A stretch of DNA of 64,000 nt from Bacteroidota bacterium (GTDB lineage Bacteria > Bacteroidota > Bacteroidia > AKYH767-A > 2013-40CM-41-45): contig JAPLDA010000009.1 of NCBI GenBank assembly GCA_026391945.1, positions 33,932 through 97,931 on the forward strand. Direction: 5' to 3'. Numbering within the stretch: the first letter of the stretch is position 1; the number at the start of each line of letters is the position of its first letter. Positions 10,097 to 35,267 of this stretch are shown piece after piece. Below the pieces are notes generated by a model. It worked only from the letters and a program-made list of their open reading frames with translations. It was not told the DNA's origin and made no database searches. The position numbers and the translations under genes were made by a program.

Positions 10097-12909
10097 GAGG
10101 AGGCCGGTACTTCTTTTATTGTTTTTTCTTTTTGCCTGATCAATTCAAGAATGTGTTCCGGTTTGATCGGCAATTTAGTGATCCGCACACCAACAGCATC
10201 ATAGATGGCATTGGCGATGGCCGGAATCACGGGATGCAAAGCTCCTTCACCACATTCTTTCGCTCCGAACGGACCTTCCGGATCCATCGTTTCGATGATG
10301 TTGGTGTGAATGTCGGGAGTATCCAGGGATGTTGGAATTTTATAATCCAGGAAATTGTTGTTCACCAGGAGTCCTTTGTAATATTTCATTTCTTCACTCA
10401 ACGCCTGACCGATACCCATGTGCCAGGAACCTTCCAGTTGTCCCTCTACAGCCAATGGATTCAATGCTTTTCCGCAATCATGTGCTCCCCAGACATTGAG
10501 AATTTTTACATGACCTGTTTTCGGATTTACATTCACTTCAGCCACACAGGATCCGAATGAATAAGAAGGACTCAGTCCTGCACCGGCTCCCTTGAAATCT
10601 CCGCCGAGTTTAGGAGAAATGTATTTCCCGCTTACACTAACGGCTCCGCGTTTGGCAGTGAGGATGTCGATGGCTTCATTCCAGTTCAGATCAACGGTCT
10701 TGTTGTTGCTGAAAATTTTTTCATTGGAAAAATTCAACTCTTCAACAGCAATTTCTTTTTTCATGGAAATGGCCTGCGCAATTTCATTCTTCAGGTTTTC
10801 AGCAGCATCTTTGGCTGCGTTGCCGGCCATAAAAGTAACGCGGCTTGAATAACTTCCAAGGTCAACAGGAGTAAGCAAGGTATCTGCTGCGAGAACGAAT
10901 ATTTTATCCATGCTGATGCCAAGCACTTCGGCAACAATGATGGCAAGCATCGTATCGCTTCCCTGGCCGATGTCGTTGGCTCCTGAAGTGATCAGAACCC
11001 TTCCGTCGAAATCAACTTTCAGGTGAACGGTAGATTGCGGCAGTTCATTCCAGATGATTGGCAATGCACTTCCGCTGATAAAAAATCCGCAGCCCACACC
11101 GAAGCCATGTCCGTGCTCCATTTTTCCGTGTTTGTTTTTCCATCCTGATTGTTCGGCGACTTTCTGAATGGACTCGCGGCTTCCATTCGAAGTGATGCGG
11201 TATTGCCCGACGGTGAGTGAATGTGAATCAAGAAAATTTTTCATTCTCAGTTCAACAGGATCCATGTTGATTTTATGTGCGATGTCATCAATGAGGCTTT
11301 CAACGGCAAAACGGGAGTTCACTGCACCGTGTCCGCGCATGGCGCCGCACTGTGGCTTGTTGGTATAAACCCGGAAGGTGCGGAAACCAAAATTATTGAG
11401 TTTGTAAGGAGCCTGTAACAAGACGCCATTGTAGTAAGATGTTACGACGCCGAAACTTCCGTATGCGCCTCCGTCGATGATGATGTCTGCGTCCAGTACT
11501 TTCAGCAAACCGTTTTTATCAGCACCAAGTTGTATCGTCATGCGCGAAGGATGACGTCCATGATTGTTCAGGAAAACTTCTTCTCTGGTGAGGCAAACAC
11601 GCACCGGCTTCCCGGTTTTGCGTGCCATGTGTGCAACGATGATTTCATGTGGAAACGGATCGCTCTTGCCTCCAAAACCACCGCCGACATGAGGTTTGAT
11701 CACGCGGACACGGCTGAGCGGAACTTCCATGGTTTTGGCAAGAGCACGGTGAAGATAATGTGTCACTTGCGTAGCGGAAATAACAGTGAGGCCGTTCTCA
11801 TCCCAATAAGCAGTAGTTGCATGAGGTTCGGTGAAAGCATGTGTGACGCCTTCCATTTCGAATGTCATGTTGCTCACCACTTCCGCATCTTTCAATCCCT
11901 GTTGTTGATCTCCGAAACGCAGTTCAGCTTTCTTGTGAATGTTGTTGTTGAATTTTGATTCGCGGTTCGGATCGGAATGTATTTTCTCATGTTCACCGAC
12001 ATCGTTCATCGAATCATCGATGGTCAGGAATTCTTTGATCGGCTGGTAAGTGACTTTTACCAGTTTGCAGGCCTGTTGTGCGATGGCTTCCGTATCGGCT
12101 GCGACAGCAGCAACGATTTCACCGGCGTACCGTGTTTTATCAATGGCCATTGCCGTTTCATCCTGTGAAAGCGGAAGCACTCCGAACTTAACCGGCAGTT
12201 CTTTTCCTGTGGCAATGTAACGGACTCCCGGAAGTTTCATCGCCTCATCGGTGCTGATGTCAACAATTTTTGCATGAGGGAAAAGGCTTCTCACAAATTT
12301 TACATGGAGAGCATCTTTGATTTTATAATCATCAGCATAATCGGCAATTCCCCTGGCTTTCTTTGATGCTTCAATGGCAGGTCTTCCGATTCCGACGGTT
12401 TTTTCAGTCGTGCTATTTTTTTCTTTTTTCTGAGGAAGAATTTTTCCGTTTTTCTCAGCGGCATATTCTGCAACGGCTGCGATGATTTTTTTATATCCTG
12501 TGCAGCGGCATACATTTCCTGACAGAGCATCTTTGATTTCTGAAATGGAAGGATCCGGATTTTTATTGACAAAGTCGAGAGCCGTCATCACCATTCCGGG
12601 AGTACAGAAGCCGCATTGAATGGCTCCTTTCTCCACAAATTTTTCCTGCAGCAGATGCAATTCTCCCTGGTGATCGATTCCTTCAATGGTAGTAATGTTC
12701 GCATTCTCGAACCGGAGAGCAGGCGTGATGCAGCTCAACACCGGTTCGTTGTTTACCAAAACGGTACAAGCTCCGCAACTTCCCTGTGAACAACCGATTT
12801 TTGTTCCGGTGAGCCCGATTTTTTCCCGGATCACTTCAGAAAGCATCTCATGCTCAGTCACAGGAACTGAATGAGATTTGCCGTTTACTGTCAGATTTAA
12901 AATTCTCAT
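10093..12909 (-). CDS. 4-hydroxybenzoyl-CoA reductase-like fused gamma (2x 2Fe-2S) and alpha (molybdopterin) subunits
   Basis: N-terminal GCSQGSCGACTVLVN and QCGFCTPGMV...NVCRCTGYKKI; then xanthine oxidase-family Mo domain (HVGGGFGGKSDPFPHE, GAMRGHGAVN). Start set at MRILNLTV (12909), ATGA overlap with the upstream ferredoxin. Confidence 0.85.
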   Translation of the reverse strand: MRILNLTVNGKSHSVPVTEHEMLSEVIREKIGLTGTKIGCSQGSCGACTVLVNNEPVLSCITPALRFENANITTIEGIDHQGELHLLQEKFVEKGAIQCGFCTPGMVMTALDFVNKNPDPSISEIKDALSGNVCRCTGYKKIIAAVAEYAAEKNGKILPQKKEKNSTTEKTVGIGRPAIEASKKARGIADYADDYKIKDALHVKFVRSLFPHAKIVDISTDEAMKLPGVRYIATGKELPVKFGVLPLSQDETAMAIDKTRYAGEIVAAVAADTEAIAQQACKLVKVTYQPIKEFLTIDDSMNDVGEHEKIHSDPNRESKFNNNIHKKAELRFGDQQQGLKDAEVVSNMTFEMEGVTHAFTEPHATTAYWDENGLTVISATQVTHYLHRALAKTMEVPLSRVRVIKPHVGGGFGGKSDPFPHEIIVAHMARKTGKPVRVCLTREEVFLNNHGRHPSRMTIQLGADKNGLLKVLDADIIIDGGAYGSFGVVTSYYNGVLLQAPYKLNNFGFRTFRVYTNKPQCGAMRGHGAVNSRFAVESLIDDIAHKINMDPVELRMKNFLDSHSLTVGQYRITSNGSRESIQKVAEQSGWKNKHGKMEHGHGFGVGCGFFISGSALPIIWNELPQSTVHLKVDFDGRVLITSGANDIGQGSDTMLAIIVAEVLGISMDKIFVLAADTLLTPVDLGSYSSRVTFMAGNAAKDAAENLKNEIAQAISMKKEIAVEELNFSNEKIFSNNKTVDLNWNEAIDILTAKRGAVSVSGKYISPKLGGDFKGAGAGLSPSYSFGSCVAEVNVNPKTGHVKILNVWGAHDCGKALNPLAVEGQLEGSWHMGIGQALSEEMKYYKGLLVNNNFLDYKIPTSLDTPDIHTNIIETMDPEGPFGAKECGEGALHPVIPAIANAIYDAVGVRITKLPIKPEHILELIRQKEKTIKEVPASS

Positions 12910-13136
12910 TGGATCTTTTCTGTCTTGATAATTTTCACCGGACAATTTTGGGCTGCAATGCGTATGGATTGGTATTCATCATCCCCGGCAGTCGTCATGT
13001 ATATCCCGTTTTTTTCTGTTCCGCCAACCAGCGTACTTTTTCCATCTTTTCTCGACATGCGCCAGCGGCCCGGATCAGCTTCCACACATGCATTGCAGCC
13101 AATGCATTTATCCCTGTAGTGAACAACTTTCACCAT
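12906..13136 (-). CDS. Small 4Fe-4S ferredoxin
   Basis: CIGCNACVEADPGRW ... NCPVKII. Confidence 0.8.
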   Translation of the reverse strand: MVKVVHYRDKCIGCNACVEADPGRWRMSRKDGKSTLVGGTEKNGIYMTTAGDDEYQSIRIAAQNCPVKIIKTEKIQ

Positions 13137-16051: not shown

Positions 16052-17227
16052 ATGAATTCACCTGAACAACAACTTGAGAAATTACTTGACGAATGCAAGA
16101 CACTTGCCTTCGATTTGAATTTTACATACGCAAAGGATTGGAAAAAGCAATCCAAAAACCGGTTGCTTGTCGGGTATCTCCCGATTTATGTTCCGCGTGA
16201 AATTATTCATGCTGCCAATGCATTGCCTGTTGGCATCATGGGAGTTGGTGACAGGAAACAAATTATCAAAGGCGATGCCTATTACCAGTCATACATCTGC
16301 CACCTGCCGAGAGGGATCATAGAAATGGCTCTCGATCACAACCTGGAAAACTTCGACGGATTTCTTTTTCCTGCAATCTGTGATTGTGTAAGGAATCTTT
16401 CAGGGATGTTCAAGATTGTTAAAAAAGGGAAGTTCACCCGCTATTTTGATTATCCTCAGAATTTTGATGCGCTGATCGGTGGTGTTTTTTACCGCGAGTT
16501 GCTCGAGACCGTTATCCACGACATGTATCTTCTGAACGGAGTAAAAATTACCATCGAAAATCTCAATCACTCCATCAAACTTTACAACATCAACCGCCGG
16601 CTGATTGAAAAGATATACGATATCCGCCAGGAATTTCCATGGCGTCTTTCGGCCGTGGATGTATATCATATCATTCGTGCAGGCCTGGTGATCACGGTTG
16701 AAAAACACAATGAGATTTTGGAAGAAGTGGTTTCGCTGATTGAAAAAGATTCCGGAGAACCCCTGGATAATATCCGTGTGGTAGTATCAGGATCGTTCTG
16801 TGAACAGCCGCCGGTTGGCCTGATCAAATCCATCGAAATGGCCGGATGCTATATCGTGGATGATGATTTCATGCTCGGATCAAGATGGATACAAGGTGAT
16901 ATCAACGCAGCCACCAATAACCCGGTCAACGAAATCGTAAAATCATTCCTCGAACAGAGCGCTCCTTCTTCTGCAATTTATGATGTCGCCAATCCGAAAG
17001 GAAAACGGCTGGTCGACCTGGTGAAAAAAAGAAAAGCGGACGGTGTGATCTTCTGCGCAGCAAGTTTCTGTGATCCGGCTTTGCTCGATCGCCCTGACTT
17101 GCAGAAGTCCTGCGACGAAGCAGGAGTGAATCACATCAATTTCCAGTTCCATGAAAACACCGGGCAGTTCAAGGTGATCAAAGAGCAGGCAGGAACATTT
17201 TCTGACTCCATCAAACTCTGGGTATAA
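16052..17227 (+). CDS. bcrC: Benzoyl-CoA reductase subunit C (BcrC/BadD-like)
   Basis: 2-hydroxyacyl-CoA dehydratase/BCR family; first of a four-gene bcrCBAD-ordered set; DDDFMLGSRWIQGDI motif. Confidence 0.88.
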   Translation: MNSPEQQLEKLLDECKTLAFDLNFTYAKDWKKQSKNRLLVGYLPIYVPREIIHAANALPVGIMGVGDRKQIIKGDAYYQSYICHLPRGIIEMALDHNLENFDGFLFPAICDCVRNLSGMFKIVKKGKFTRYFDYPQNFDALIGGVFYRELLETVIHDMYLLNGVKITIENLNHSIKLYNINRRLIEKIYDIRQEFPWRLSAVDVYHIIRAGLVITVEKHNEILEEVVSLIEKDSGEPLDNIRVVVSGSFCEQPPVGLIKSIEMAGCYIVDDDFMLGSRWIQGDINAATNNPVNEIVKSFLEQSAPSSAIYDVANPKGKRLVDLVKKRKADGVIFCAASFCDPALLDRPDLQKSCDEAGVNHINFQFHENTGQFKVIKEQAGTFSDSIKLWV

Positions 17228-17271: not shown

Positions 17272-18570
17272 ATGAGCAATCCGCAGGAAGCCATCAAGGA
17301 AAAAAGTATGATCATTCAGAAAGAGATGCTTGGAAATCTTTTTACTGAATTGAGCACGGCAAAAGAGAACGGAAAAAAAGTAGTCTACACTTTTGTTCCG
17401 GGAAACCTCACCGAACTGATTCTCGCTCTCGACATGTTGCCGGTGTACCCGGAAATCAATGCCCTTCAGTCGGGCATGAGAAAAAAATCCGGTTCGTATA
17501 TTAAAGATGCCGAGAAGATTGGTTTCAGTGAAGACGTTTGCACGTATGTGAAATGCGATATTGGAATGATGCTCAACGGCAACATCGGTCCCACCGGCGA
17601 AAAACTTCCTGATCCCGACATGCTGCTGTTAAGTTACACCGGCTGCTTCACGTTCCTGAAATGGTTTGAAAACCTTGAACGACTCTTCCCGGGAGTTGAA
17701 ATTGCCATGCTTCACACGCCTTACCAGGAAGACGGAAGGATTACCGACGACCAGGTGAACTACATGGTGAAGCAATTGAAAGAAGAAGTGATTCCGAAAA
17801 TGGAAAAAGTAGCCGGAAAAAAAATGGACTACAACCGTCTTTCAAAGATGCTGGCGAATTCAGCGAAGTCGGAAGATTTATGGGTGAAGGTCCTGGAGTC
17901 GGCAAAGAATGTCCCATCGCCGATTGATTCCTACTTCGCAGGTGTGTATTACATGGGGCCGTTGAACACGGCTTTTCGCGGAACCGATATGGCACTTCAG
18001 TATTACCAGGAATTGTTCAATGAAGTGGACGACCGTTTGAAAAAAGGTTTGCTCCCGATCAATCCCGAAGGTGAAATGAAAAAGGAAAGGTACCGGCTGG
18101 TCGTTGAAGGTCCGCCTAACTGGACCAACTTCCGCGAGTTCTGGAAAATATTTTATGACATGGGAGCGGTGATTGTTGCATCCACTTACACCAAAGTGGG
18201 CGGTGTGTACGACCGTGGATTCCGTCATGAACCTGAGAAACCCCTGGAGAGCTTGTCAAAATACTGCATGGGTTGTTATACGAATCTCAATCTGGAACAG
18301 CGTGTTGATTTGATTGAACATTATATCAAAGAATACAAAGCCGACGGGTTTCTCATCAACTCCATCAAGAGTTGCAATTCATTTTCCGCAGGGCAATTGC
18401 TGATGATGCGCGAGATTGAGCAACGATGCGGTGTTCCGGTGGGCTTCATCGAAAGTGACCTGGTGGATCCGCGTTATTTTTCTTATGCCAACATCAAGAA
18501 CCGTCTTGAGTCCTATTTCCAGATGCTGGAACAAAGAAAGATCATCATGTCACAGGAGGCGACCGTCTGA
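17272..18570 (+). CDS. bcrB: Benzoyl-CoA reductase subunit B (BcrB/BadE-like)
   Basis: 432 aa; LLLSYTGCFTFLKWFENLERLFPGVE; KYCMGCYTNLNLEQRV; position between bcrC and bcrA. Confidence 0.88.
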   Translation: MSNPQEAIKEKSMIIQKEMLGNLFTELSTAKENGKKVVYTFVPGNLTELILALDMLPVYPEINALQSGMRKKSGSYIKDAEKIGFSEDVCTYVKCDIGMMLNGNIGPTGEKLPDPDMLLLSYTGCFTFLKWFENLERLFPGVEIAMLHTPYQEDGRITDDQVNYMVKQLKEEVIPKMEKVAGKKMDYNRLSKMLANSAKSEDLWVKVLESAKNVPSPIDSYFAGVYYMGPLNTAFRGTDMALQYYQELFNEVDDRLKKGLLPINPEGEMKKERYRLVVEGPPNWTNFREFWKIFYDMGAVIVASTYTKVGGVYDRGFRHEPEKPLESLSKYCMGCYTNLNLEQRVDLIEHYIKEYKADGFLINSIKSCNSFSAGQLLMMREIEQRCGVPVGFIESDLVDPRYFSYANIKNRLESYFQMLEQRKIIMSQEATV

Positions 18571-18611: not shown

Positions 18612-20039
18612 ATGAGCAAATATTATCTCGGAGTTGACCTTGGCTCCACCACATCAAAGGCTGTCATCATCAATGAACAGGATGAAATCATCGGGCGCGG
18701 AATCACCAACACCCGCGCTAACTATGCTGTTGCTGCTGATATTGCACGCGACGAAGCCATTTACAATGCGCGTTTTTCCGTGCTGAAGAAAAAGCTGGAA
18801 GCTGAAATGAAAGCGAAACCGGAGTACCATAAATACATTACCGATCTCGAAAGTGTTTTTCAATATGAGCAGTTCAAAGTACGGCTGGATAAACTGGGTG
18901 AAGAACTTCTGAAAACCTGCTATACATTTTTCAAGGAAGAAAAAAGAAGAGAAGAAATTCTGAATCACCTGCGGAATATCCGGAAAGCTTTTAAGCCGAA
19001 AATAAAACACGAATACCTTTTTAAAAACCTTGGAGCGAAAAACCAGTTTTTCCGTGACATCGTTTCGGAACGGTACAACGAAGAAGTAAACAAACTCGAC
19101 CTGTCGTTGTTTGAGCCGCTGATGACCGTATGGGACAAGAGTATCAGTCCAGCCGAAAATGAGCGTGTGCAATTTGATTTCGAAGAGCTCATTCATAAAG
19201 CCATGGATGAGTTGAAAGACAAATACAAAAATCTTCCTGATACTGCCGCTGAAGATACCAGCGTAAATTTTGATGCAGAGATCAACCTGCTGAAAGGAAA
19301 ATTCGATCACGTTTCGGAATCGCTGCGTGAGCACATCGATGAGATCGCTGCGATTGAATTCAATATTGAAAACATGACAGGAACCGGCTACGGAAGAGCT
19401 CTTCTGCCGTTTCCGCAGGAGTGCATCCGTTCAGAAATTTTGTGTCATGCATTTGGTGCTCATGCCGTTTTTCCGGAAACAAGAACCGTACTCGACATCG
19501 GCGGGCAGGATACGAAGGCGATACAGGTTGACAAGTACGGACTCGTTACCAGTTTCCAGATGAACGATCGTTGTGCTGCCGGCTGCGGACGTTACCTCGG
19601 TTACATTGCCGATGAGATGAGTATTTCATTGAATGAACTGGGACCAATGGCGATGCAGGCGGAGAAGGAAGTAACCATCTGTTCCACCTGTACCGTGTTT
19701 GCCGGCGCTGAGTTAAGGGAACTCACCAATCTTGGTGAGAAGCGTGCCGACATTCTTGGAGGTTTGCACAAAGCGATTATCATGCGTGCCATGTCATTGA
19801 TCGCGCGTTCGGGAGGAGTATTCAATGAATTTACTTTTACCGGCGGAGTAGCCCGTAACCAAGCCGTCATCAAGTACCTCACCCAACTGGTGAAAGAAAA
19901 TTACGGAGACAACATCCGGATTAACATTCACACCGATTCCATTTTTATGGGAGCGCTCGGAGGTGCCATGTTTGCCAGGAGAAATATCCTTACCAATCTT
20001 CCTGACGAAAAAAAATCAAAAGAAATTACCATAGAATAA
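18612..20039 (+). CDS. bcrA: Benzoyl-CoA reductase subunit A (ATPase/activase, BcrA/BadF-like)
   Basis: YYLGVDLGSTTSKAVIINE; long helical insertion; NDRCAAGCGRYL and CSTCTVFAGAEL activase cysteine motifs. Confidence 0.9.
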   Translation: MSKYYLGVDLGSTTSKAVIINEQDEIIGRGITNTRANYAVAADIARDEAIYNARFSVLKKKLEAEMKAKPEYHKYITDLESVFQYEQFKVRLDKLGEELLKTCYTFFKEEKRREEILNHLRNIRKAFKPKIKHEYLFKNLGAKNQFFRDIVSERYNEEVNKLDLSLFEPLMTVWDKSISPAENERVQFDFEELIHKAMDELKDKYKNLPDTAAEDTSVNFDAEINLLKGKFDHVSESLREHIDEIAAIEFNIENMTGTGYGRALLPFPQECIRSEILCHAFGAHAVFPETRTVLDIGGQDTKAIQVDKYGLVTSFQMNDRCAAGCGRYLGYIADEMSISLNELGPMAMQAEKEVTICSTCTVFAGAELRELTNLGEKRADILGGLHKAIIMRAMSLIARSGGVFNEFTFTGGVARNQAVIKYLTQLVKENYGDNIRINIHTDSIFMGALGGAMFARRNILTNLPDEKKSKEITIE

Positions 20040-20054
20040 TCTAACAACAAGTCA

Positions 20055-20894
20055 ATGGACAAACCTGTTTATACAATCGGAATTGATGTTGGAAGTAATT
20101 TCATCAAACTCATCCTGATGAAATATTCCGATCATCCTGAAATCATCGACAAACACACTGAAAAAATCCGCAAGCGCGATCCGTCGGCGGTGGCAGACGA
20201 AATCGTGAATGCCATACTCGAAAAAAACGGGTTAAAATACGAGGACATTGCTTACCTCGCTTCCACCGGTGAAGGCGATTTGGTAAAAAGAAAGCGCGGT
20301 CATTTTTACGGGATGACGACTCACGCAAAAGGCGCCAATTTCTTTTTCCCTGATGCGAGAACAGTGGTTGATCTTGGAGCACTTTATGTGCGTGCCATCC
20401 GCATCAACGAAGGCGCGCGCGTGGAAGATTACAAGATGACGGGCCAGTGTGCATCAGGCTCCGGGCAGTTCCTTGAAAATATTTCGCGTTACCTCGGCTT
20501 GTCAATCGAAGAAGTCGGCGAGGTTTCCATGCAGGCAACACAACCGGAAGTTTCATCCGGCATTTGCGCCGTACTTGCCGAAACAGATGTGATCAACATG
20601 GTGTCGCGCGGAATAACGACTCCTGACATCATCAAAGGAATTCATATTTCTATTGCTTCCCGGATCATCAAATTACTGAGCTCATTAAAAGCAGAGTCAC
20701 CGATCGTATTAACCGGCGGAATGGCGTTGAACAAAGGAATGATCCAGGCGATTGACGAGCAACTGAAAGAAGGGAATAAAAAATTCATTGTCAAGGCTCA
20801 TCCTGATTCCATCTATGCAGGAGCCATCGGCGCTGCTTTGTGGGGAGGATACCGTCATCTTAAGTTGAAAGAAAAACAGGCAGAGGCAGTTTAA
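20055..20894 (+). CDS. bcrD: Benzoyl-CoA reductase subunit D (ATPase/activase, BcrD/BadG-like)
   Basis: TIGIDVGSNFIKLILMK; TGQCASGSGQFLENISRYLG; ICAVLAETDVIN. Confidence 0.9.
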   Translation: MDKPVYTIGIDVGSNFIKLILMKYSDHPEIIDKHTEKIRKRDPSAVADEIVNAILEKNGLKYEDIAYLASTGEGDLVKRKRGHFYGMTTHAKGANFFFPDARTVVDLGALYVRAIRINEGARVEDYKMTGQCASGSGQFLENISRYLGLSIEEVGEVSMQATQPEVSSGICAVLAETDVINMVSRGITTPDIIKGIHISIASRIIKLLSSLKAESPIVLTGGMALNKGMIQAIDEQLKEGNKKFIVKAHPDSIYAGAIGAALWGGYRHLKLKEKQAEAV

Positions 20895-20904
20895 AAAAAC
20901 CAGG

Positions 20905-23046
20905 ATGGAAGCGATTTTAAAAAACGAAATAAAAAAAAACGTCTCGGGAAAATCAGTTCACGAACTGGATTCACTTTTCAAACCCAAAGCGATTGCCATC
21001 ATCGGCGCTTCTTCCAAAGAGCTTTCCATTGGAAATGTGATCCTGAAAAATCTTGTTCATTATGGATACACCGGGAAAATTTATCCCATCAATCCGAAAG
21101 AACCGGAAGTGAGAGGCATCAAAGCATACCCGACCATTTTTGATGTGCCGGGAGACATTGACCTCGCGCACGTCATCATCCCGGGAAAATTTGTTCCGCA
21201 GATCATTGAAGATTGCGGGAAGAGAGGAATCAAATCAGTCATCATCAACTCGGCGGGATTCAGTGAGATGGGAGAAGAAGGAATGGCGCTTCAAACAGCC
21301 TTTCTTACCAATGCAAAAAAATACGGAGTCCGGATTTTCGGCCCCAATTGCCAGGGCATCATCAACGCCGATCCACAATACAAAGCCTACTGCGATTTCA
21401 CGTTTACATTTCCGAAACCCGGCAGCATTTCCATTGTTGCCTTGAGCGGCGGCGTCGGTGCCTTCATCATGCAGAGTTTGTTTGATCTGGAGATCGGGAT
21501 GCGCATGTATGCATCCAACGGAAACGCCTGCGATGTTTCCATTTCGGAAGTGGTGAATTATTATGGTGAAGACGAAGGAACCAAAGCCGTTATTTTATAT
21601 ACGGAAGGTTTTCACAACCCGAAAGAGTTCATGGATGTGGCACAAATTGTTTCAAAGAAGAAACCGATTCTCGCCATGAAAGCCGGCCGCACGGAAGAAG
21701 GCGCGAAAGCCGCCGCCTCTCACACAGGCTCACTGGCAGGAGTGGACATCGCTACCGAATTGATTTTTGAAAAAACAGGAATACTTACTTTCAATAATGA
21801 AGAAGAAATGTGCCAGGCAGCCATGGCTTTTTCTACACAACCGATTCCGAAAGGAAACCGTGTCGGCATCATCACCAACACAGGTGGCCCTGCCGTGATT
21901 GCCACCGATGAACTGGTGAGTGCAGGACTGCAGCTTCCCGCCTTATCAGAAAAAGCAAAAAATATTCTGAAAGAAACCATGCTTCCTGAAGCCACCATCG
22001 GAAACCCGATTGATGTGGTGGCAACGGGCGGAGGAAAACATTTCCGCAGTGCACTGGATGTACTGATGGATGAAGAAACGATTGATTCCGTTTACATCAA
22101 TTTTGTCACGGCACCGTTTACGGATACCGATGATGTTGCCAGGAATATTGTGGAAGTGAATAAACAGAATCGTAAGCCGATCGTCTGCAACTTTATGACG
22201 AACATGAGCCTTGAACGTTTCCAGGTGACAGCAAAAATTTTAAAAGACGGCGGAGTTCCTTGTTATAGTTTCCCGACTACTGCTGCAAAGGCGCTTGGCG
22301 CATTGTATCAATACCACCAGGTACAGTCAAGGAATATCGGTGAAGCAAAAAATTTCAGTGATACAAACAAAGCCGGTGCTGAGAAGATTTTAGAGCAGGC
22401 GAAAAATGAAAACAGAGAATTTCTTTCTTCTGCCGCTACGTATCAATTGCTTTCTCATTATAACATTCCTGTTGCCGACTGGCGCATAGCTGCTGATGCA
22501 AATAGTGCAATTCAAGCTGCCGAAGAAATCGGGTTTCCTGTTGTCATCAAAGCAGATGCAGAATCATTGGTTCATAAGAGCGACATGGGTGGTGTAGCCG
22601 TCAATTTAAAAAATGCCGATGAAATTCACGCGACTGTTGAGAGGATGAAAAAATCTTTTGATTCAAAGGATTTGAAATTCTTTGTTCAGAAATTTTTACC
22701 GGGAGGAAGAGAGTTAATAGCCGGTGTGAGTGCGAAAAAAGATCTCGGCCATCTCATCATGTTCGGCATCGGCGGAATTTATGTTGAGGTGCTGAAAGAT
22801 GTGGTCTTCAAAATTTCTCCCGTCACCGAAGTGGAGGCAAAAGAAATGCTTTCGTCCATCAAGACTTCAAAATTACTGGATGGTGTGAGAGGAGAAAAAG
22901 GAATTCACAAACATAGCGTGATTGAAATTATTCAACGCCTATCGCAACTGGTTACTGATTTTCCGGAGATACAGGAAATGGATTTGAACCCCATCATGGC
23001 GTTTGAGAATAAAGCATTAGTTGTTGACGCGAGAATAAGAATTTAA
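20905..23046 (+). CDS. Acyl-CoA (acetyl-CoA) synthetase, ADP/NDP-forming, fused alpha-beta type
   Basis: CoA-binding domain AIAIIGASSKELSIGNVILKNL; GRTEEGAKAAASHTGSLAG; C-terminal ATP-grasp GFPVVIKADAESLVHKSDMGGVAVNL. Confidence 0.9.
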   Translation: MEAILKNEIKKNVSGKSVHELDSLFKPKAIAIIGASSKELSIGNVILKNLVHYGYTGKIYPINPKEPEVRGIKAYPTIFDVPGDIDLAHVIIPGKFVPQIIEDCGKRGIKSVIINSAGFSEMGEEGMALQTAFLTNAKKYGVRIFGPNCQGIINADPQYKAYCDFTFTFPKPGSISIVALSGGVGAFIMQSLFDLEIGMRMYASNGNACDVSISEVVNYYGEDEGTKAVILYTEGFHNPKEFMDVAQIVSKKKPILAMKAGRTEEGAKAAASHTGSLAGVDIATELIFEKTGILTFNNEEEMCQAAMAFSTQPIPKGNRVGIITNTGGPAVIATDELVSAGLQLPALSEKAKNILKETMLPEATIGNPIDVVATGGGKHFRSALDVLMDEETIDSVYINFVTAPFTDTDDVARNIVEVNKQNRKPIVCNFMTNMSLERFQVTAKILKDGGVPCYSFPTTAAKALGALYQYHQVQSRNIGEAKNFSDTNKAGAEKILEQAKNENREFLSSAATYQLLSHYNIPVADWRIAADANSAIQAAEEIGFPVVIKADAESLVHKSDMGGVAVNLKNADEIHATVERMKKSFDSKDLKFFVQKFLPGGRELIAGVSAKKDLGHLIMFGIGGIYVEVLKDVVFKISPVTEVEAKEMLSSIKTSKLLDGVRGEKGIHKHSVIEIIQRLSQLVTDFPEIQEMDLNPIMAFENKALVVDARIRI

Positions 23047-23139: not shown

Positions 23140-24378
23140 ATGTATAAAATACAATCTGCAAAAATCCTGAAGGAAGTAATGGGAAATTATTTTCTGGGAA
23201 TGAAAGACACCGGTAAAAAATATGCGTGGTGTACAAGCGTAGGTCCCGCCGAGTTGCTGCGCTCATTTGGTTTTGAAGTCCACTTCCCTGAAAACCACGG
23301 AGCGTTATTGGGAGCCACACGAACCTCCGGCGATTTTATTCCCGAGAGCGCAAGCCTGGGATATAACAACGACATCTGTTCATACCTGACTTCAGACATC
23401 GGTTCCTATTTAAAAAAGAAAACTCCATTGCAGGAACATTATGGTTTGAATGGCCCGCCTAAACCGGACATCATCGTTTACAATACCAATCAATGCCGCG
23501 AAGTGCAGGATTGGTTCATGTATTTTGCAAAAGAAATGAATTGTCCGGTTGTCGGCATCACACCTCCAAGGCATGTGGATGAAGTCACCGATGCGCACAT
23601 CAACGATGTGAGCGCGCAGTTCAAAGCGATGATTCCTGCCTGTGAAAAGGCAAGCGGAAAAAAATTCGACATTGATAAATTCAGGGAAACGCTGCGGCTG
23701 AGCAAGGAAGCAACCGACCTGTGGAAGAAGGTTTTGTGGACGGCCACCGCTTCTCCTTCACCAATCAGTTTTTTTGATGCGACCATTCACATGGGGCCGA
23801 TCGTGGTTTTGCGCGGAACGCAGACAGCCAAAGATTATTACTCAACGCTGTTAAAGGAACTGAAAGAAAATGTTTCCAAAAAAGTCGGGTTTCTTGAAGA
23901 CGAGCGTTTCCGGATTTACTGGGACGGAATGCCGATCTGGGGAAAGTTAAGGCCGATGTCGGAATTGTTTATCCAGAACAAAGCTGCTGTGGTTGCTTCT
24001 ACCTATTGCAACAGCTGGGTGTTTGATGCATTCGATGAAGAACATCCGTTCGAGACATCTGCAAAAGCATACACCGAAATTTTCATCAACAGAAGTGAAG
24101 AGGCGAAGGAAAAAATATTAGCCGGCCTGGTCGAAGATTTCCGGATCGACGGAATGATTTTTCATGATGCAAAGACCTGCGCCAATAATTCCAACTCCCG
24201 TTTTGGAATGCCGCAGCGAATTACTGAAAAACTTGGCATCCCGACTTTGGTGGTGGAAGGTGATTTGTGTGATTTGCGTTTTTACTCCGAAGGACAAACC
24301 ACCACAAAAATTGAAACATTCATTGAACAGATAGAAAGCCTGCCTGCCGGACAGGCAAGTACAAAAGTGCTTAGCTGA
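23140..24378 (+). CDS. 2-hydroxyacyl-CoA dehydratase / BcrB-HgdA family protein, orphan paralogue
   Basis: 412 aa sharing layout with BcrB (N-terminal helix, GYNNDICSYLTSDIGSYL, HDAKTCANNSNSRFGMPQ, LVVEGDLCDLR); divergent from 17272-18570. Confidence 0.75.
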   Translation: MYKIQSAKILKEVMGNYFLGMKDTGKKYAWCTSVGPAELLRSFGFEVHFPENHGALLGATRTSGDFIPESASLGYNNDICSYLTSDIGSYLKKKTPLQEHYGLNGPPKPDIIVYNTNQCREVQDWFMYFAKEMNCPVVGITPPRHVDEVTDAHINDVSAQFKAMIPACEKASGKKFDIDKFRETLRLSKEATDLWKKVLWTATASPSPISFFDATIHMGPIVVLRGTQTAKDYYSTLLKELKENVSKKVGFLEDERFRIYWDGMPIWGKLRPMSELFIQNKAAVVASTYCNSWVFDAFDEEHPFETSAKAYTEIFINRSEEAKEKILAGLVEDFRIDGMIFHDAKTCANNSNSRFGMPQRITEKLGIPTLVVEGDLCDLRFYSEGQTTTKIETFIEQIESLPAGQASTKVLS

Positions 24379-24407: not shown

Positions 24408-24878
24408 ATGAGCGGGAAAAATTCTTTTGAAAACCGGATCTATAAACTTTCCACTGGAGAGAAAGTAAGTTCCGCTGACCTCGAAAAGCTGATTGAAGGG
24501 AAATGCCACTATGTTCAATACGTCGCTATCGGGAAAGATGAAAAGGGTGATTCAGTCGCGTTGATTTTTCCGAATAAAAATTTACTGAACAATCCCGATT
24601 ACCAGCTAAGCCCGGAAGAAGGATGTTTTTGTCCGCGCAGCCTCGATGAACTCGGCAGATGCCTGACCGGTTGTTTGAAACTGGTGAATCAACAGATTGA
24701 TAATGATTCATCGAAAGTGAAATCAGCGGCCATCATCAACACGAATTTTCCTGCCGGGGACGAAACATCGATTACTTCCCAACACGTTTTTGATAAATAC
24801 AAAGCACTGCTTCACGAGGCACATGGAGAAAATGTTCCGGCTGATGAAGAAATTTATTTTATAAAAAATGCACAATGA
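24408..24878 (+). CDS. Hypothetical protein resembling the C-terminal subdomain of AMP-forming acyl/feruloyl-CoA synthetases
   Basis: YKLSTGEKVSSADLEKLIEGKCHYVQYVAIGKDEKGDSVALIFPN resembles the GKWVS...YVQDVVI..G...ALIFPN region of ligases; no N-terminal adenylation core in the window. Confidence 0.45.
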   Translation: MSGKNSFENRIYKLSTGEKVSSADLEKLIEGKCHYVQYVAIGKDEKGDSVALIFPNKNLLNNPDYQLSPEEGCFCPRSLDELGRCLTGCLKLVNQQIDNDSSKVKSAAIINTNFPAGDETSITSQHVFDKYKALLHEAHGENVPADEEIYFIKNAQ

Positions 24879-26731
24879 AAAACGCCATGGATTCAGCGAA
24901 AATAAAAATCGGTGTGGTGGGCTTAGGCCCCGTGGGGATGATCTTAGCGGTTAAACTGAAAGAAGCCGGTTGTGACGTAGCCTTGTGCGATAAGGATGAA
25001 TTCAAACTGAAAAAAATCCGCGAAGAAGGAATTGTCCTGGAGAATATCATTGAATCAAAAACGGTTTTTGACAAGGTGTACGATTCTCCCAGGGACATGC
25101 GCCACCTCGACCTGGACTATCTTGTTTTTTCACTGAAGACTTACCAGACATTGGGTGCAGCCAAAGAAGCTGAAATACTGAACTCCGATAAAATCACACT
25201 GGTGTCAGCGCAAAACGGAATTGATTCGGAGAAACTGGTCTCCTCTGTTTTTGGAGAATCCAAAACGCTTCGCATGGTCATCAACTATGCAGGAAATTTA
25301 CGTTCACCGAATACGGTGAGGGTTTCTTTCGTAACTCCTCCGAACTACGTTGGTTCCATCGACGACAGCCGGACCAAACAAGCGGAACGTTTTGCAGGAA
25401 TCTTAAACAGTGTCGGGTTCGCCACCGAAAGACTTGATTCGTTCGAACTGGTAAAAAGCACCTGGGAAAAAACAATTCTCAATTCATCACTCAGCGCCCT
25501 GTGCGGAGTGGGGCGGCTCACGATGATGGAAGCCATGGCCGATGCCGACACGATGGAATTGATCGAACAAATCATCAACGAAGGAATTGATGTTGCTGAA
25601 AAAGAAAAAGTCCGGTTCCCGGATGACTTCCTGAGAAAATGCATGTTGTACCTGAGGAAGGGCGGCGATCATTTTCCCTCTCTCGCCGTTGACCTCATCA
25701 ACAACAGGCAAACGGAAATAGATTACTTCAACGGGAAAATTGTGGAGTACGGAAAAAAACATTACGTGAAAACATCGCTGAACCTTGCCTTCACCAACAT
25801 GGTAAAAGCCATGACGAATAAAAATGTGCTGGCGAGATTTCCCGGCGTGGAAGGCGAACTCAATAAAATCATCATCAGCAAAGGGCTGGTGGATAAAAAT
25901 AAACCTTCTGTTTTTTACCAGGAACAGAATTGTTTTATGGGAATTGATCTCGGTTCCGCATTCACCAAGTTCACCATCGTTGATGAAAATGGAAATCCTG
26001 TATTCAGGTACGTTTTACAGACGATGAACAAGGATCGCCACGCCATGAAAAACATTCTCAAGGCGATTCATTCGACATTTAAGATCAGCCACAGCTGCGC
26101 CACCGGTTACGGAAGAAAACATTTTACCGATACCGACATCGTGAAAACTGAAATCAACTGCGCTTCCGCCGGTGTTTCGGAATTTTTCGGCGGCGAAAAA
26201 AACATCATCGACATCGGGGGAGAAGACATTAAAATCATTCATTGCGACTACGAAAATCACGTAGCGAATTTTTACATGAATGATAAATGTGCTGCCGGAA
26301 CCGGTGCTTTCCTGGAAGAAATTTCGGAACGTGCGGAAATCAATATTTCTGAAATGAGCAGTCTGGCATCGAATTCAGAATACAACAGGGAACTGAACAG
26401 TTTCTGCACCGTGTTCGCCAAAACAGAAATCATGAATTGGGTGTTCGACGGAATGCCGCGGCAGGATATTGCAAGAGGAATTTATATTTCGATTGCCAAC
26501 AAAGTCGCGAAGATGAGGCTCTACCCAAACATCCCGACATTCATGATCGGTGGTGTGATCGCTCATCATCCTTACCTGAACAAAATTCTCTGTGATAAAT
26601 TCAACATAGAAATAAAAACGGTTGATCAGCCGCAGTACATCGTATCGTTTGGTGCAGCGATGATAGCAAGGCTAACCTGGCTGGCGCTGCACCCGTTAGA
26701 AATCAAACAGGCCGAAACACTCACTCATTAA
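24875..26731 (+). CDS. Fusion: ketopantoate-reductase-like dehydrogenase (N-terminal) plus BadF/BadG/BcrA/BcrD/HgdC-type activase ATPase (C-terminal)
   Basis: N-terminal IGVVGLGPVGMILAVKL and KSTWEKTILNSSLSALCGV; from about residue 353 CFMGIDLGSAFTKFTIVDENG, NDKCAAGTGAFLEEISERA, FCTVFAKTEIMN. Confidence 0.85.
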   Translation: MKNAMDSAKIKIGVVGLGPVGMILAVKLKEAGCDVALCDKDEFKLKKIREEGIVLENIIESKTVFDKVYDSPRDMRHLDLDYLVFSLKTYQTLGAAKEAEILNSDKITLVSAQNGIDSEKLVSSVFGESKTLRMVINYAGNLRSPNTVRVSFVTPPNYVGSIDDSRTKQAERFAGILNSVGFATERLDSFELVKSTWEKTILNSSLSALCGVGRLTMMEAMADADTMELIEQIINEGIDVAEKEKVRFPDDFLRKCMLYLRKGGDHFPSLAVDLINNRQTEIDYFNGKIVEYGKKHYVKTSLNLAFTNMVKAMTNKNVLARFPGVEGELNKIIISKGLVDKNKPSVFYQEQNCFMGIDLGSAFTKFTIVDENGNPVFRYVLQTMNKDRHAMKNILKAIHSTFKISHSCATGYGRKHFTDTDIVKTEINCASAGVSEFFGGEKNIIDIGGEDIKIIHCDYENHVANFYMNDKCAAGTGAFLEEISERAEINISEMSSLASNSEYNRELNSFCTVFAKTEIMNWVFDGMPRQDIARGIYISIANKVAKMRLYPNIPTFMIGGVIAHHPYLNKILCDKFNIEIKTVDQPQYIVSFGAAMIARLTWLALHPLEIKQAETLTH

Positions 26732-26733
26732 TT

Positions 26734-27996
26734 ATGAAATCATTCCACTCGATAGAAAAGGGAATTGCAATTATTTACGACGATCTGTATTTGGTGAATG
26801 GAGCGCGTACTCCATTCGGAAAATTTTGCGGAACACTTGCACAGGTTTCCCCGACGGATCTTGGAATTTTTTCGAGCCGTGCGGCCATCGAAAAGTCAGG
26901 CGTCAATCCAAAGGAAATTGACCAGGCCATCATTGCGAACATCGGCCAGTCGTCGGGAGATGCTTATTTTCTTCCACGTCACATTGCCTTGTTTGCAGGA
27001 TTGCATGAATCGGTTCCGTCACTCATGGTGCAGCGGATCTGTGCTTCGGGATTTGAAACCATCATTGCTGCATCCGAACAGATCATGCTCGGGAAAGCCG
27101 ATACTGTTTTGTGCTGCGGAACAGAAAGTATGTCGCTTTCACCCACGGTGAGCTTTGGCAACCGCATGGGTTATCCTCTTGGACGGCCTGTGTTTAAAGA
27201 TATGTTGTGGGAAGCACTCGATGATACGGCTGCCGGTTACCCGATGGGTTATACGGCGGAGAATGTGGCGAAGAAACACAACATCACACGGCAGCAATGC
27301 GATGAGTTTGCGCTTCTTTCATTTCAGCGTTCGGTGGCTTCGCGCAACAGCAACATTTATAAAGATGAAATAGCTTCCGTAAATTCTGTTGTGTTTGAAG
27401 CGGAAGGACTGAAGCCAAGGAAGGTGAGGATACCGGGAGGTGTAAAGAATTTTGTTTCCGATGAACAGGTGCGTGAAACTACGCTGGAAGCACTGGCGAA
27501 ACTACCAACGGTATTTTCTGATGTGGGAGTACTCACCGCCGGGAATTGCAGCGGCATCGTTGACGGTTCCGCAGCTGTTGTCGTGGCGAATAAAAACAGC
27601 ATTCAGTCGAAAGGATTAAAACCGGTTGCCAAAGTAGTTGCTTCTGCAAGTTGCGGCATTGATCCCAAAGTAATGGGACTCGGCCCGGTTCCGGCAATCC
27701 GGCTTCTTCTTGAAATCACAGGATTGAAAATGGAAGACATCGGCTTGTTTGAAATCAACGAAGCTTTTTCTGCGCAAGTCATCGGCTGTGAAATTGAACT
27801 CGGATTGGATCGCGCCAAATTGAATGTGAACGGTGGCGCTATTGCCATTGGGCATCCGTTAGCAGCAACCGGAACAAGATTGTCGCTCACGATTTCAAGG
27901 GAAATGATTGCACGAAAAGTAAAATATGGAATTGCTTCTGCCTGTATTGGCGGCGGACAAGGAACGGCAGTGTTATTTGAAAATGTAAATCTTTAG
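26734..27996 (+). CDS. Thiolase family acetyl-CoA C-acyltransferase
   Basis: VQRICASGFETI, GGAIAIGHPLAATGTRL, ASACIGGGQGTAVLFE. Confidence 0.92.
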   Translation: MKSFHSIEKGIAIIYDDLYLVNGARTPFGKFCGTLAQVSPTDLGIFSSRAAIEKSGVNPKEIDQAIIANIGQSSGDAYFLPRHIALFAGLHESVPSLMVQRICASGFETIIAASEQIMLGKADTVLCCGTESMSLSPTVSFGNRMGYPLGRPVFKDMLWEALDDTAAGYPMGYTAENVAKKHNITRQQCDEFALLSFQRSVASRNSNIYKDEIASVNSVVFEAEGLKPRKVRIPGGVKNFVSDEQVRETTLEALAKLPTVFSDVGVLTAGNCSGIVDGSAAVVVANKNSIQSKGLKPVAKVVASASCGIDPKVMGLGPVPAIRLLLEITGLKMEDIGLFEINEAFSAQVIGCEIELGLDRAKLNVNGGAIAIGHPLAATGTRLSLTISREMIARKVKYGIASACIGGGQGTAVLFENVNL

Positions 27997-27998
27997 TC

Positions 27999-29111
27999 AT
28001 GTCGGATACAATTGAAAAAGTAAAATCAAATTCTTCTGCGATAAAACGGACAGAAAAAATTTATCAGTGGCAGATGATTGAACCGGATAAGGAGTTTAAT
28101 CTTGTTGAACAACCCGTTCCGGAATTGAAAGAAGGAGAAGTGTTGGTGCAAATAGCCGGTTGCGGAGTTTGTCACACCGATATCAGTTTCTGGCATCATG
28201 GAGTTCAGACGAAACATGCATTGCCACTTACGCTGGGGCATGAAATCAGCGGAACGGTTGTGGACGGATCACAGGAATGGATTGGAAAGAAGGTCATCAT
28301 CCCTGCCGTTCTTCCATGCGGTGAATGTGAGTTGTGTAAAAAAGGAAGAAGCAACATTTGCAGAAATCAATTGATGCCCGGAAATGATTTTCACGGTGGA
28401 TTTGCATCCCACATCGTGGTTCCTTCAAAATATTTATGTCATGTTCCTGCTGATGTGTTGAAAAAATATTCGCTGGAGCAACTGTCGGTGATTGCAGATG
28501 CCATCTCCACTCCTTACCAGGTGGTGAAGAAATCAGAACTGGAAACAGGAGACCTTGCCATTGTGATCGGAGTCGGAGGCGTTGGGGTGTACGGTGCGCT
28601 GATCGCCAAAATTTTCGGAGCCAAAGTCATTGCACTCGACATCAACGATGAAAAATTAAATACGGCAAAGGCCAATGGCGTGGATGCCATCCTCAATATT
28701 AAAGGGCTGGATACAAAAACCATTAAGGAAAAAGTAAAGGAGCTTGCCAAAGAAATCAAAGCACCGAAAACCGGGTGGAAAATTTTTGAGATCAGCGGAA
28801 CGAAAGCAGGACAGGACTTGGCTTTCAACCTCATCACGTTTACTTCCACACTTTCCATCGTCGGGTTTACGATGGATAAAGTGGAAGTCCGCCTGAGTAA
28901 CCTCATGGCATTCGATGCAAAACTCATCGGTACCTGGGGATGCCGTGCTGAATTATATCCCGAAGTACTCGACCTCGTAGCAAAGGACAAATTAAACATT
29001 TCCGGTTTCGTGCAGACGTTCCCGATGTCAGAAATCAATAACGTATTTAAAAATACATTGGAACATAAGTACACCAAACGTTCGGTGCTGGTGCCGGATT
29101 TTAACGGATAG
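27999..29111 (+). CDS. had: 6-hydroxycyclohex-1-ene-1-carbonyl-CoA dehydrogenase
   Basis: Zn-ADH fold; LPCGECELCKKGRSNICRNQLMPGNDFHGGFASHIVVP; TGWKIFEISGTKAGQ; GFTMDKVEVRLSNLMAFDAKLIGTWGC. Confidence 0.88.
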   Translation: MSDTIEKVKSNSSAIKRTEKIYQWQMIEPDKEFNLVEQPVPELKEGEVLVQIAGCGVCHTDISFWHHGVQTKHALPLTLGHEISGTVVDGSQEWIGKKVIIPAVLPCGECELCKKGRSNICRNQLMPGNDFHGGFASHIVVPSKYLCHVPADVLKKYSLEQLSVIADAISTPYQVVKKSELETGDLAIVIGVGGVGVYGALIAKIFGAKVIALDINDEKLNTAKANGVDAILNIKGLDTKTIKEKVKELAKEIKAPKTGWKIFEISGTKAGQDLAFNLITFTSTLSIVGFTMDKVEVRLSNLMAFDAKLIGTWGCRAELYPEVLDLVAKDKLNISGFVQTFPMSEINNVFKNTLEHKYTKRSVLVPDFNG

Positions 29112-30314: not shown

Positions 30315-31409
30315 ATGGAAGAATTGAAAAGCCACAACCTTGTCGAGACCCAATACACAGAAATTATTTTTGAAAAACGTCCATGTCTTAATTATGACGG
30401 ATCCCCGGTAAACGGCTTGTATAATGCGTGGATCATTCTGAATAATCCGAAACAATTCAACTCCTACACAACCAAGGCGGTAAAGGAAATCATTCTTGCC
30501 TTCGGTGAAGCCTCCAACGACCGGAGCGTGGTATCCGTTGTGTTTACGGCCGTTGGTGATAAGGCCTTTTGCACCGGCGGCAATACGAAGGAGTATGCTG
30601 AATATTATGCCGGAAATCCGCAGGAGTATTCCCAGTACATGCGTTTGTTCAACGACATGGTGAGCGCCATTCTCAAATGTGAGAAGCCTGTGATCTGCCG
30701 CGTGAATGGAATGCGCATCGGAGGCGGACAGGAAATCGGGATGGCTTGTGACTTCAGCATTGCCAGCGACATGGCACGTTTCGGACAGGCTGGTCCAAAA
30801 CATGGAAGTGCGCCGATTGGCGGGGCAACGGATTTTCTTCCGCTGTTTGTCGGCATGGAAAGAGCGATGATGTCGCTCACTCTTTGTGAACCATGGAGCG
30901 CGCACCAGGCTTATTATTTCGGAATCATCAGTGAAATTGTTCCGGTACTGAAACGAGACGGAAAATTCATCCCCAACCCGATGGTAGTCACTGATAAAAT
31001 TGTTGATGAATACGGAAGGTATGTGTTCGGTACTTCGAAAGCGGGCGATGAACTGAAAGCCGCCAAGGAAACCGTTGCTGCGTGTGAAATGGATTTAAGC
31101 ATGCTCGATGCCGCCGTGAACAAATTGATCGCAAAATTGCTGCATACATTTCCAAATTGCACGAACAAAACAATTTCAGAAGTCCGGAAATTTAAACTGG
31201 AACACTGGGATAAAAACAAAGAGGGCAGCCGAGAATGGCTTGCATTGAATATGATGACGGAAGCCAAAGCAGGATTCCGTGCATTCAACGAAGGGCCGAA
31301 AGAAAACAGGGAAGTGGATTTCATCAAACTGCGCCGCTTGCTTGCAGAAGGCCGGGAATGGGATGACGAAATGCACAAGTCAATTTCACCGCAATTCCAG
31401 ACGGCATAG
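30315..31409 (+). CDS. oah: 6-oxocyclohex-1-ene-1-carbonyl-CoA hydrolase
   Basis: Crotonase-like; PVICRVNGMRIGGGQEIGMACDFSIASD; GPKHGSAPIGGATDFLPLFVGMERAM, typical of Oah/BamA. Confidence 0.9.
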   Translation: MEELKSHNLVETQYTEIIFEKRPCLNYDGSPVNGLYNAWIILNNPKQFNSYTTKAVKEIILAFGEASNDRSVVSVVFTAVGDKAFCTGGNTKEYAEYYAGNPQEYSQYMRLFNDMVSAILKCEKPVICRVNGMRIGGGQEIGMACDFSIASDMARFGQAGPKHGSAPIGGATDFLPLFVGMERAMMSLTLCEPWSAHQAYYFGIISEIVPVLKRDGKFIPNPMVVTDKIVDEYGRYVFGTSKAGDELKAAKETVAACEMDLSMLDAAVNKLIAKLLHTFPNCTNKTISEVRKFKLEHWDKNKEGSREWLALNMMTEAKAGFRAFNEGPKENREVDFIKLRRLLAEGREWDDEMHKSISPQFQTA

Positions 31410-31591: not shown

Positions 31592-31837
31592 ATGGCAAAA
31601 GTAAAAGGCGAAATTGTCGTAAACACCGAACGATGCAAAGGATGCCAGTTATGTGTTCCGGTGTGTAAAGAAAATGTGATTGCCATGTCGGAAAACCTGA
31701 ATGGAAAAGGGTATCACTTTGCGCAAAGTGTAAATGATGAATGCAACGGTTGCATCAATTGCGCATTGGTTTGTCCTGATGGTGCGATCACCGTGTACAG
31801 GGTAAAATTAAATGAATCACTAAAAGCAGCTTCGTAA
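31592..31837 (+). CDS. korD: 2-oxoacid:ferredoxin oxidoreductase delta/ferredoxin subunit (2x 4Fe-4S)
   Basis: CKGCQLCVPVCKENVI and CNGCINCALVCPDGAI, adjacent to korA. Confidence 0.88.
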   Translation: MAKVKGEIVVNTERCKGCQLCVPVCKENVIAMSENLNGKGYHFAQSVNDECNGCINCALVCPDGAITVYRVKLNESLKAAS

Positions 31838-32961: not shown

Positions 32962-32993
32962 AGTCGAATTAATCCCGGGCATCGTCGAGGGAT

Positions 32994-33014
32994 ATCCCGA
33001 TAGCGTATCGGGAT
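32994..33014. repeat. Palindromic hairpin in the korA-korB gap
   Basis: ATCCCGATA-GCG-TATCGGGAT. Confidence 0.75.
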
Positions 33015-33107
33015 TTGGTCAATACTCCGCAGTTCTGTTGCGGAAAATAATATTCAATTTGATACCTCGCAGCTCGGCTGTGGGGCCATACATAAAAGCA
33101 AAAAGTT

Positions 33108-33884: not shown

Positions 33885-33916
33885 TCATTGCAATCATTCA
33901 TTGAAAATATAACGAC

Positions 33917-34493: not shown

Positions 34494-35267
34494 ATGCAAA
34501 AAATTAAACTTTCTTTTTCTCACGATGACTCTGTGGCCCGCATCATCCTTGACGATGGCAAAGGAAATGTGCTCGATCAGATCATGATGAAAGAATTGCA
34601 GCAGGCGCTGGATTCCTTCCATGAAAAAAAAGAACTTAAGCTGATTACGTTCGAAGGAGCCGGAAAACATTTTTCATTTGGCGCCAGCGTGGAGGAACAC
34701 AAAAAGGAAAATGCTGCGGAGATGCTGAAGGCATTTCACCGGTTGTTTTATTCCATTACTGATTTATCCATTCCGACAGCAGCAAAAATATCAGGACAAT
34801 GTTTAGGCGGCGGAATGGAACTGGCTCTCATCTGCAATTTTCTTTTTGCTGATAAAACCGCCAAACTCGGTCAGCCGGAAATTGTGCTTGGTGTGTTCGC
34901 ACCGCCTGCTTCCGTGATCCTGCCAATGAAAATTGGAAGAGCAAAAGCTGAAGAATTACTGCTCACCGGCAAAACGATTGGCGCCGATGAAGCATTGAAC
35001 ATCGGTTTGCTGAACGAAGTTTTTGCCGACAAAGCGGCGATGGATGCAGCAACGGAAGCCTGGATGGAACAACACATCGTACCGAGAAGCGCTTCCTCGC
35101 TTCGCATGGCGGTGAGCGCTTCACGCTCCTTCTTCAATCACATTCTCACCAAATTTTTACCTGCTCTGGAGCAGGTGTATGTTCATCAACTGATGGAAAC
35201 GCACGATGCCAACGAAGGAATCAATTCCTTCCTCGAAAAGCGTAAACCTGAATGGCAAAATAGTTAA
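34494..35267 (+). CDS. dch: Cyclohexa-1,5-diene-1-carbonyl-CoA hydratase
   Basis: Crotonase fold; AAKISGQCLGGGMELALICNFLFAD; QPEIVLGVFAPPASVILPMKIG; clustered with had/oah/bcr. Confidence 0.85.
   Translation: MQKIKLSFSHDDSVARIILDDGKGNVLDQIMMKELQQALDSFHEKKELKLITFEGAGKHFSFGASVEEHKKENAAEMLKAFHRLFYSITDLSIPTAAKISGQCLGGGMELALICNFLFADKTAKLGQPEIVLGVFAPPASVILPMKIGRAKAEELLLTGKTIGADEALNIGLLNEVFADKAAMDAATEAWMEQHIVPRSASSLRMAVSASRSFFNHILTKFLPALEQVYVHQLMETHDANEGINSFLEKRKPEWQNS

Follow-up and report, generated by a model that had tools for sequence, protein, structure and literature searches.

Described 2-hydroxyacyl-CoA dehydratases (HADs) are heterodimers, and double-cubane cluster proteins (DCCPs) are homodimers (PMC11971306). 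The system reported here resembles HadBCI/LdhA, and also FldABC-I and HgdABC of Clostridia, in combining a D-2-hydroxyacid dehydrogenase with an activase that has the same two cysteine motifs and with a HadB-type catalytic subunit that has three cluster cysteines, a Ser and a Glu. It differs from them in that the dehydrogenase belongs to the PanE family and is fused to the activase, in having one HGD-D subunit instead of the two in HadBCI-type systems, and in being clustered with a CoA ligase, not a CoA-transferase, and linked to the benzoyl-CoA pathway. Class I benzoyl-CoA reductases (BCRs; BcrABCD, BzdNOPQ and MbdNOPQ) share the activase and HGD-D folds and sit in the same operon, but they have two activase and two HGD-D subunits, whereas here there is one of each beside a complete BcrABCD. 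DCCP with its reductase DCCP-R likewise consists of one HGD-D protein and one activase and is homodimeric. In contrast, our HGD-D protein is HadB-like (TM 0.86-0.90 for an AlphaFold model of mean pLDDT 84) and not DCCP-like (TM 0.71-0.75; 58 bits against a cut-off of 350 for NF040772), and the activase bears a PanE domain. Finally, PanE-type D-2-hydroxyacid dehydrogenases (Enterococcus D-mandelate dehydrogenase, 3wfi; ketopantoate reductases) have the same Rossmann and ApbA_C domains and Lys/Asn/Glu set, but here a C-terminal activase is added and the link to benzoyl-CoA genes is strict.

We found this system in the window, by which we mean the whole 64,000-nucleotide stretch of Bacteroidota DNA that was analysed. 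The setting of the fusion gene is a complete class I benzoyl-CoA degradation cluster with the following features:

9164..12945, - strand: 4-hydroxybenzoyl-CoA reductase-like hcrB and fused hcrCA (best matches TIGR03195 and TIGR03194, below cut-offs)
16052..17227, + strand: bcrC (TIGR02263)
17272..18570, + strand: bcrB (TIGR02260)
18612..20039, + strand: bcrA (best match TIGR02259, 439 bits, below the cut-off of 578)
20055..20894, + strand: bcrD (TIGR02261)
20905..23046, + strand: ADP-forming acyl-CoA ligase, 713 aa (Pfam, NCBIfam)
23140..24378, + strand: lone HGD-D protein of the catalytic HadB type, 412 aa (profiles, alignment, tree, predicted fold)
24408..24878, + strand: 156-aa ORF, homologue of the C-terminal domain of AMP-forming ligase (Pfam, neighbourhood comparison)
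24875..26731, + strand: PanE/ApbA-type dehydrogenase fused to BcrAD_BadFG activase, 618 aa (ORF reading, Pfam, NCBIfam)
24908..25813, + strand: PanE/ApbA domain of the fusion, residues about 12-313 (Pfam, structure search, 82-protein alignment)
25829..25930, + strand: variable linker of the fusion, residues 319-352 (82-protein alignment)
25940..26668, + strand: activase domain of the fusion, residues 356-598, cluster ligands C472 and C511 (Pfam, structure search, alignment)
26734..27996, + strand: thiolase, immediately 3' of the fusion (Pfam, NCBIfam)
27999..29111, + strand: had, 6-hydroxycyclohex-1-ene-1-carbonyl-CoA dehydrogenase (TIGR03201)
30315..31409, + strand: oah, 6-oxocyclohex-1-ene-1-carbonyl-CoA hydratase/hydrolase (TIGR03200)
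31592-31837, + strand: ferredoxin (named from sequence reading and cluster position)
31837-34471, + strand: korABC-like 2-oxoacid:ferredoxin oxidoreductase (named in the same way)
34494..35267, + strand: dch, dienoyl-CoA hydratase (best match TIGR03189, 235 bits, below the cut-off of 292.5)

The source genome (G000, a 3.1 Mb assembly) contains three HGD-D genes, all within this cluster: bcrB, bcrC and the lone gene. The ligase slot holds an ADP-forming enzyme of 713 aa in the window, as against an AMP-forming one of about 580 aa in other genomes. A free-standing homologue of the AMP-ligase C-terminal domain is kept where the ADP-forming ligase substitutes (24408-24878 in the window, and loci L026, L031 and L034).

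The fusion ORF opens with an ATG at 24875 and its stop ends at 26731, with no internal stops. An earlier note on this DNA had described it as one 618-aa ORF with a PanE/ApbA domain and, from about residue 353, a complete activase with both ligand motifs. Profile searches confirmed both parts. Pfam placed ApbA at residues 12-152 (70 bits) and ApbA_C at 194-313 (95 bits; cut-offs about 22), followed by BcrAD_BadFG, a full ASKHA domain, at 356-598 (128 bits; cut-off 31.5), all above gathering scores. NCBIfam agreed, with TIGR00745 at 157 bits (cut-off 141) and TIGR00241 at 171 bits (cut-off 125). The motifs GLGPVG, KSTWEKTILN, NDKCAAGTG and FCTVFAKTE were all found in the sequence. In an alignment of 82 proteins, every member kept the GxGxxG glycines (G16, G18, G21), N114 and the catalytic K199, N203 and E281 of the PanE half, as well as the two cluster cysteines of the activase half. 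The linker is the least conserved inner part; it varies in both length and sequence, with a mean column identity of 52% versus 75-78% in the domains. The solved structures closest to the N-terminal half are the PanE-type enzymes 2ew2, 8wl1 and 3wfi. For the C-terminal half they are three activators: 4eht (HadI, serving 2-hydroxyisocaproyl-CoA dehydratase, ranked top), 7yyl (serving DCCP) and 1hux (serving 2-hydroxyglutaryl-CoA dehydratase). Neither the fusion nor its HGD-D neighbour qualifies as a class I BCR: both fall short of the thresholds set for TIGR02259, TIGR02260 and TIGR02261. A phage or mobile origin of the fusion was rejected, since a viral scan gave no relative.

The earlier note had further proposed that the fusion couples 2-oxo reduction to radical chemistry in one polypeptide. 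This proposal is partly supported. The two domains, their intact catalytic and ligand residues and a link of 2-oxo acid reduction to BCR/HAD chemistry bear it out, but no dehydratase or reductase domain is present in the polypeptide, so the radical step must belong to the HGD-D protein encoded just upstream.

This HGD-D protein matched HadB with 206 bits, MbdO with 158 and BzdO with 105 in a 33-row alignment, and HadB was also its best fold match. Its tree placed it firmly with the catalytic subunits and apart from HadC/BcrC/BzdN (100/100), without separating HAD from BCR kinship. Residues C80, C119 and C347 align with the BzdO cluster ligands Cys95, Cys128 and Cys380, and S33 and E51 with BzdO Ser44 and Glu65 (PMC11971306), equivalent to HadB Ser37 and Glu55. 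The three cysteines, the Ser, the Glu and the nearest fold are thus those of a HadB-type catalytic subunit, and from its sequence it is probably a radical dehydratase served by the activase domain. Two more cysteines, C31 and C290, are also invariant and C290 aligns with a DCCP cysteine, so the protein could hold an additional or altered cluster. We found no second subunit of the HadC type in the source genome, where bcrB and bcrC are the only other HGD-D genes, or in genome G332, which has a single HGD-D gene. In class I genomes bcrC may act as a shared partner; a solitary HadB-type protein would be a new arrangement.

Conservation of the module was assessed in related genomes and in a species-level genome collection, and the fusion proved widespread among uncultured Bacteroidota. 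Full-length fusions occur in 10 of 59 related genomes (G017 included), and an 11th, G003, has a fragment at a contig edge. The collection yielded 80 further loci with 53-88% identity, from Chitinophagaceae, Flavobacteriales, Saprospiraceae, Ignavibacteriae and single bins named as other phyla, and a single-contig genome carries the fusion too. Gene order is near-fixed: bcrCBAD, CoA ligase, HGD-D, fusion, thiolase, had, oah, dch. In 69 of the 73 loci that could be tested, an HGD-D gene precedes the fusion on its own piece of DNA, and the two mostly overlap by 1-4 bases or have just the 156-aa ORF between them. The window has the second arrangement; elsewhere stop and start usually overlap. Two of the exceptions, loci L087 and L088, were rejected as cases without a partner, since both genomes have an HGD-D gene; for L087 it is found some 10 kb upstream of the fusion, on the contig that carries it. 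Of the 388 Bacteroidia genomes scanned, 50 have bcrB and 51 have the fusion or its split form; 49 have both. Almost all genomes without BCR also have no fusion. Only G353 has bcrB alone; it is a 67% complete genome in which a contig edge cuts the HGD-D gene. The fusion or its parts occur without bcrB in two genomes, G332 and G202. In G202 (L120, 3780-5618) the fusion is divergent, with 37% identity and its active-site residues kept; no HGD-D gene was found in this 82% complete genome.

In our judgement there is about an even chance that the fusion assists, through two activities, a 2-hydroxyacyl-CoA dehydratase route into the benzoyl-CoA pathway, with aryl-pyruvates as the likeliest substrates. 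Using NAD(P)H, the PanE half would convert a 2-oxo acid into the (R)-2-hydroxy acid, and the clustered CoA ligase would turn this into the thioester. The activase half, presumably a dimer sharing one 4Fe-4S cluster, would dock on the lone HadB-like protein and pass it a low-potential electron driven by ATP. The HadB-like protein, probably homodimeric, would then remove water from the 2-hydroxyacyl-CoA to give the 2-enoyl-CoA. A hydratase, a 3-hydroxyacyl-CoA dehydrogenase and the adjacent thiolase would shorten the chain to an aromatic acyl-CoA such as (4-hydroxy)benzoyl-CoA, which would enter Hcr, BCR, dch, had and oah. The route would most likely start from phenylpyruvate and 4-hydroxyphenylpyruvate, which derive from phenylalanine and tyrosine.

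Several observations point to a helper of a dehydratase. HadI is the nearest activase, and HadB is the nearest partner by sequence and fold; the upstream HGD-D gene, the co-occurrence with BcrB (49 of 50) and the invariant active sites point the same way, as does a class II genome that keeps the module without bcr. We also count in its favour Wada et al. 2008, in so far as it is cited in PMC12350541. The set of ligase, PanE, HGD-D, activase and thiolase reads as a path from 2-oxo acid through 2-hydroxy acid, CoA ester and enoyl-CoA to beta-oxidation. Reduction of the free 2-oxo acid is favoured, and reduction of a 2-oxoacyl-CoA is less likely because a CoA ligase accompanies the cluster. Several findings favour aromatic 2-oxo acids. 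The module is tied almost obligately to benzoyl-CoA genes, and hcr-like genes occur in its clusters, in G665 between the two separated halves. In G544 a standalone PanE gene overlaps one for a HisC-family aminotransferase (one genome, and the gene could be an ordinary hisC). None of 17 module-carrying genomes has a benzoate-CoA ligase over the TIGR02262 cut-off, although one that scores lower may exist. Against the overall reading stand the AMP-forming ligase, which has no near relative among characterised aryl ligases, the two extra invariant cysteines of the HGD-D protein, which could mean a different cluster, and the tree, which leaves HAD and BCR kinship together. The steps from phenyllactyl-CoA through cinnamoyl-CoA to benzoyl-CoA make chemical sense and were put forward as a hypothesis in a different context (PMC13416013).

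We propose more tentatively, and somewhat short of an even chance, that Bacteroidota and relatives have an undescribed anaerobic route. It would lead from phenylalanine, tyrosine or other aryl-2-oxo acids via aryl-lactates and (hydroxy)cinnamoyl-CoA to benzoyl-CoA, using a single-subunit homodimeric radical dehydratase with its dehydrogenase and ATPase in one protein. If true, this would explain how protein-degrading Bacteroidota of anoxic water and sediment could take the breakdown of aromatic amino acids as far as the ring. It would also provide a radical dehydratase working with one subunit type, and a compact protein with natural split versions for probing how an activase docks on its partner. 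The families are all known, but neither the architecture of the fusion nor its single HadB-type partner, the near-obligate benzoyl-CoA link in Bacteroidota or the pathway turned up in the open papers searched, and the earlier note named no enzyme with this architecture either.

The same machinery might instead act on a non-aromatic substrate (2-oxoglutarate, or a branched-chain or alicyclic 2-oxo acid), with clustering beside BCR due to a shared lower pathway or electron supply. The nearest characterised relatives, HadB and HadI, do use 2-hydroxyisocaproyl-CoA, and a standalone PanE is the immediate neighbour of had and oah in G332 and lies close to them in G200. Yet the near-perfect co-occurrence with benzoyl-CoA genes and the hcr-like genes repeatedly in company suggest an aromatic substrate, and we regard this alternative as a minority possibility.

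Rather unlikely is that the HGD-D protein and the activase half form an extra homodimeric ATP-dependent ring reductase or reductive dehydroxylase, with PanE oxidising or reducing a ring-derived intermediate. The HGD-D protein does belong to the BzdO/MbdO superfamily, with the Ser44/Glu65-type residues and three cluster cysteines in common with BzdO (PMC11971306), and the module is embedded among ring-degradation operons. However, HadB is nearer by sequence and fold, and a complete bcrCBAD or a class II BamB is already present alongside. The HGD-D protein also has no equivalent of BzdO His131, but neither does BcrB, and we discarded this residue as a BCR/HAD discriminator. Ring reduction through the activase half, which the earlier note had entertained, is likewise unlikely, since bcrA and bcrD are separate genes and the module occurs without bcrB or bcrC in a class II genome.

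In that genome, G332, ligase, PanE, had, oah, dch, HGD-D and activase are all present as individual genes in one neighbourhood. It has no bcrB and no bcr gene beside the module, and just one HGD-D gene in total. Its ring reductase is of class II: an ORF in a bam-like cluster (named by sequence) is near-identical to protein L136 of G200, which matches BamB (4z3w) with 1265 bits. G332 thus represents a Bacteroidota genome with BamB and bam-like neighbours in place of bcr (L143, 1709-9035). The AFOR-type proteins L133 and L134 were rejected as BamB, since a structure search matched them to other aldehyde oxidoreductase-like proteins. The module is therefore tied to the benzoyl-CoA pathway generally and not to class I BCR, and in G332 its HGD-D protein can do without a partner of the HadC or BcrC kind, provided that none is missing from this 92%-complete genome. 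The tight operon with bcrCBAD could still suggest that the activase half supports or repairs the class I BCR (BcrBC), with the PanE half as a redox sensor. This strained reading is very improbable given G332 and the module's own HGD-D partner gene, which adjoins it in nearly all testable loci.

The two halves also occur apart. In G258 and G349 the cluster position of the fusion is taken by two genes side by side, one for PanE and one for the activase, and the closed genome G665 has the order HGD-D, PanE, hcrB-like, hcrCA-like, activase, thiolase. The PanE and activase trees both separate all fused from all unfused proteins (support 100/98 and 100/99), which fits a single fusion event, possibly through loss of the genes between the halves. 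A ketopantoate reductase for CoA synthesis, fused by chance, is hardly credible: the fusion is the only PanE-family protein above the cut-off in the source genome, but fusions are almost confined to BCR genomes, and G200 and G544 have two PanE copies each. Joining of two genes by an assembly or sequencing error, which the earlier note had named as a possible refutation, can practically be dismissed: the window comes from a fragmented assembly (114 contigs) and the halves are separate genes in some relatives, but the same fusion recurs in 10 relatives' genomes, in the 80 loci from other species and in the single-contig genome.

Variations of the cluster were observed at several positions. In the window, homologues of hcrC and hcrA share a single ORF of 950 aa (within 9164-12945), with hcrB separate. 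Between had and oah, at 29119-30306, lies a secreted protein with a C-terminal domain resembling a type IX sorting signal. In G019 the same position (L032, 8448-9638) is taken by a homologue with 53% identity over 376 residues. A saccharopine-dehydrogenase-like protein of 373-386 aa, so named by sequence, is inserted 3' of bcrA and usually 5' of bcrD (L028 13633-14769, L093 1891-3051, L079 3026-4165 and L151 13967-15088). At L038 (4333-8837, G048), bcrCBAD is flanked by a second BzdN/BzdO-like pair, together with an activase and a fragment resembling BcrA. At L057, L060 and L098 the usual thiolase slot holds a fused 3-hydroxyacyl-CoA dehydrogenase/enoyl-CoA hydratase, and the genes after it encode subunits resembling those of caprolactamase or acetophenone carboxylase.
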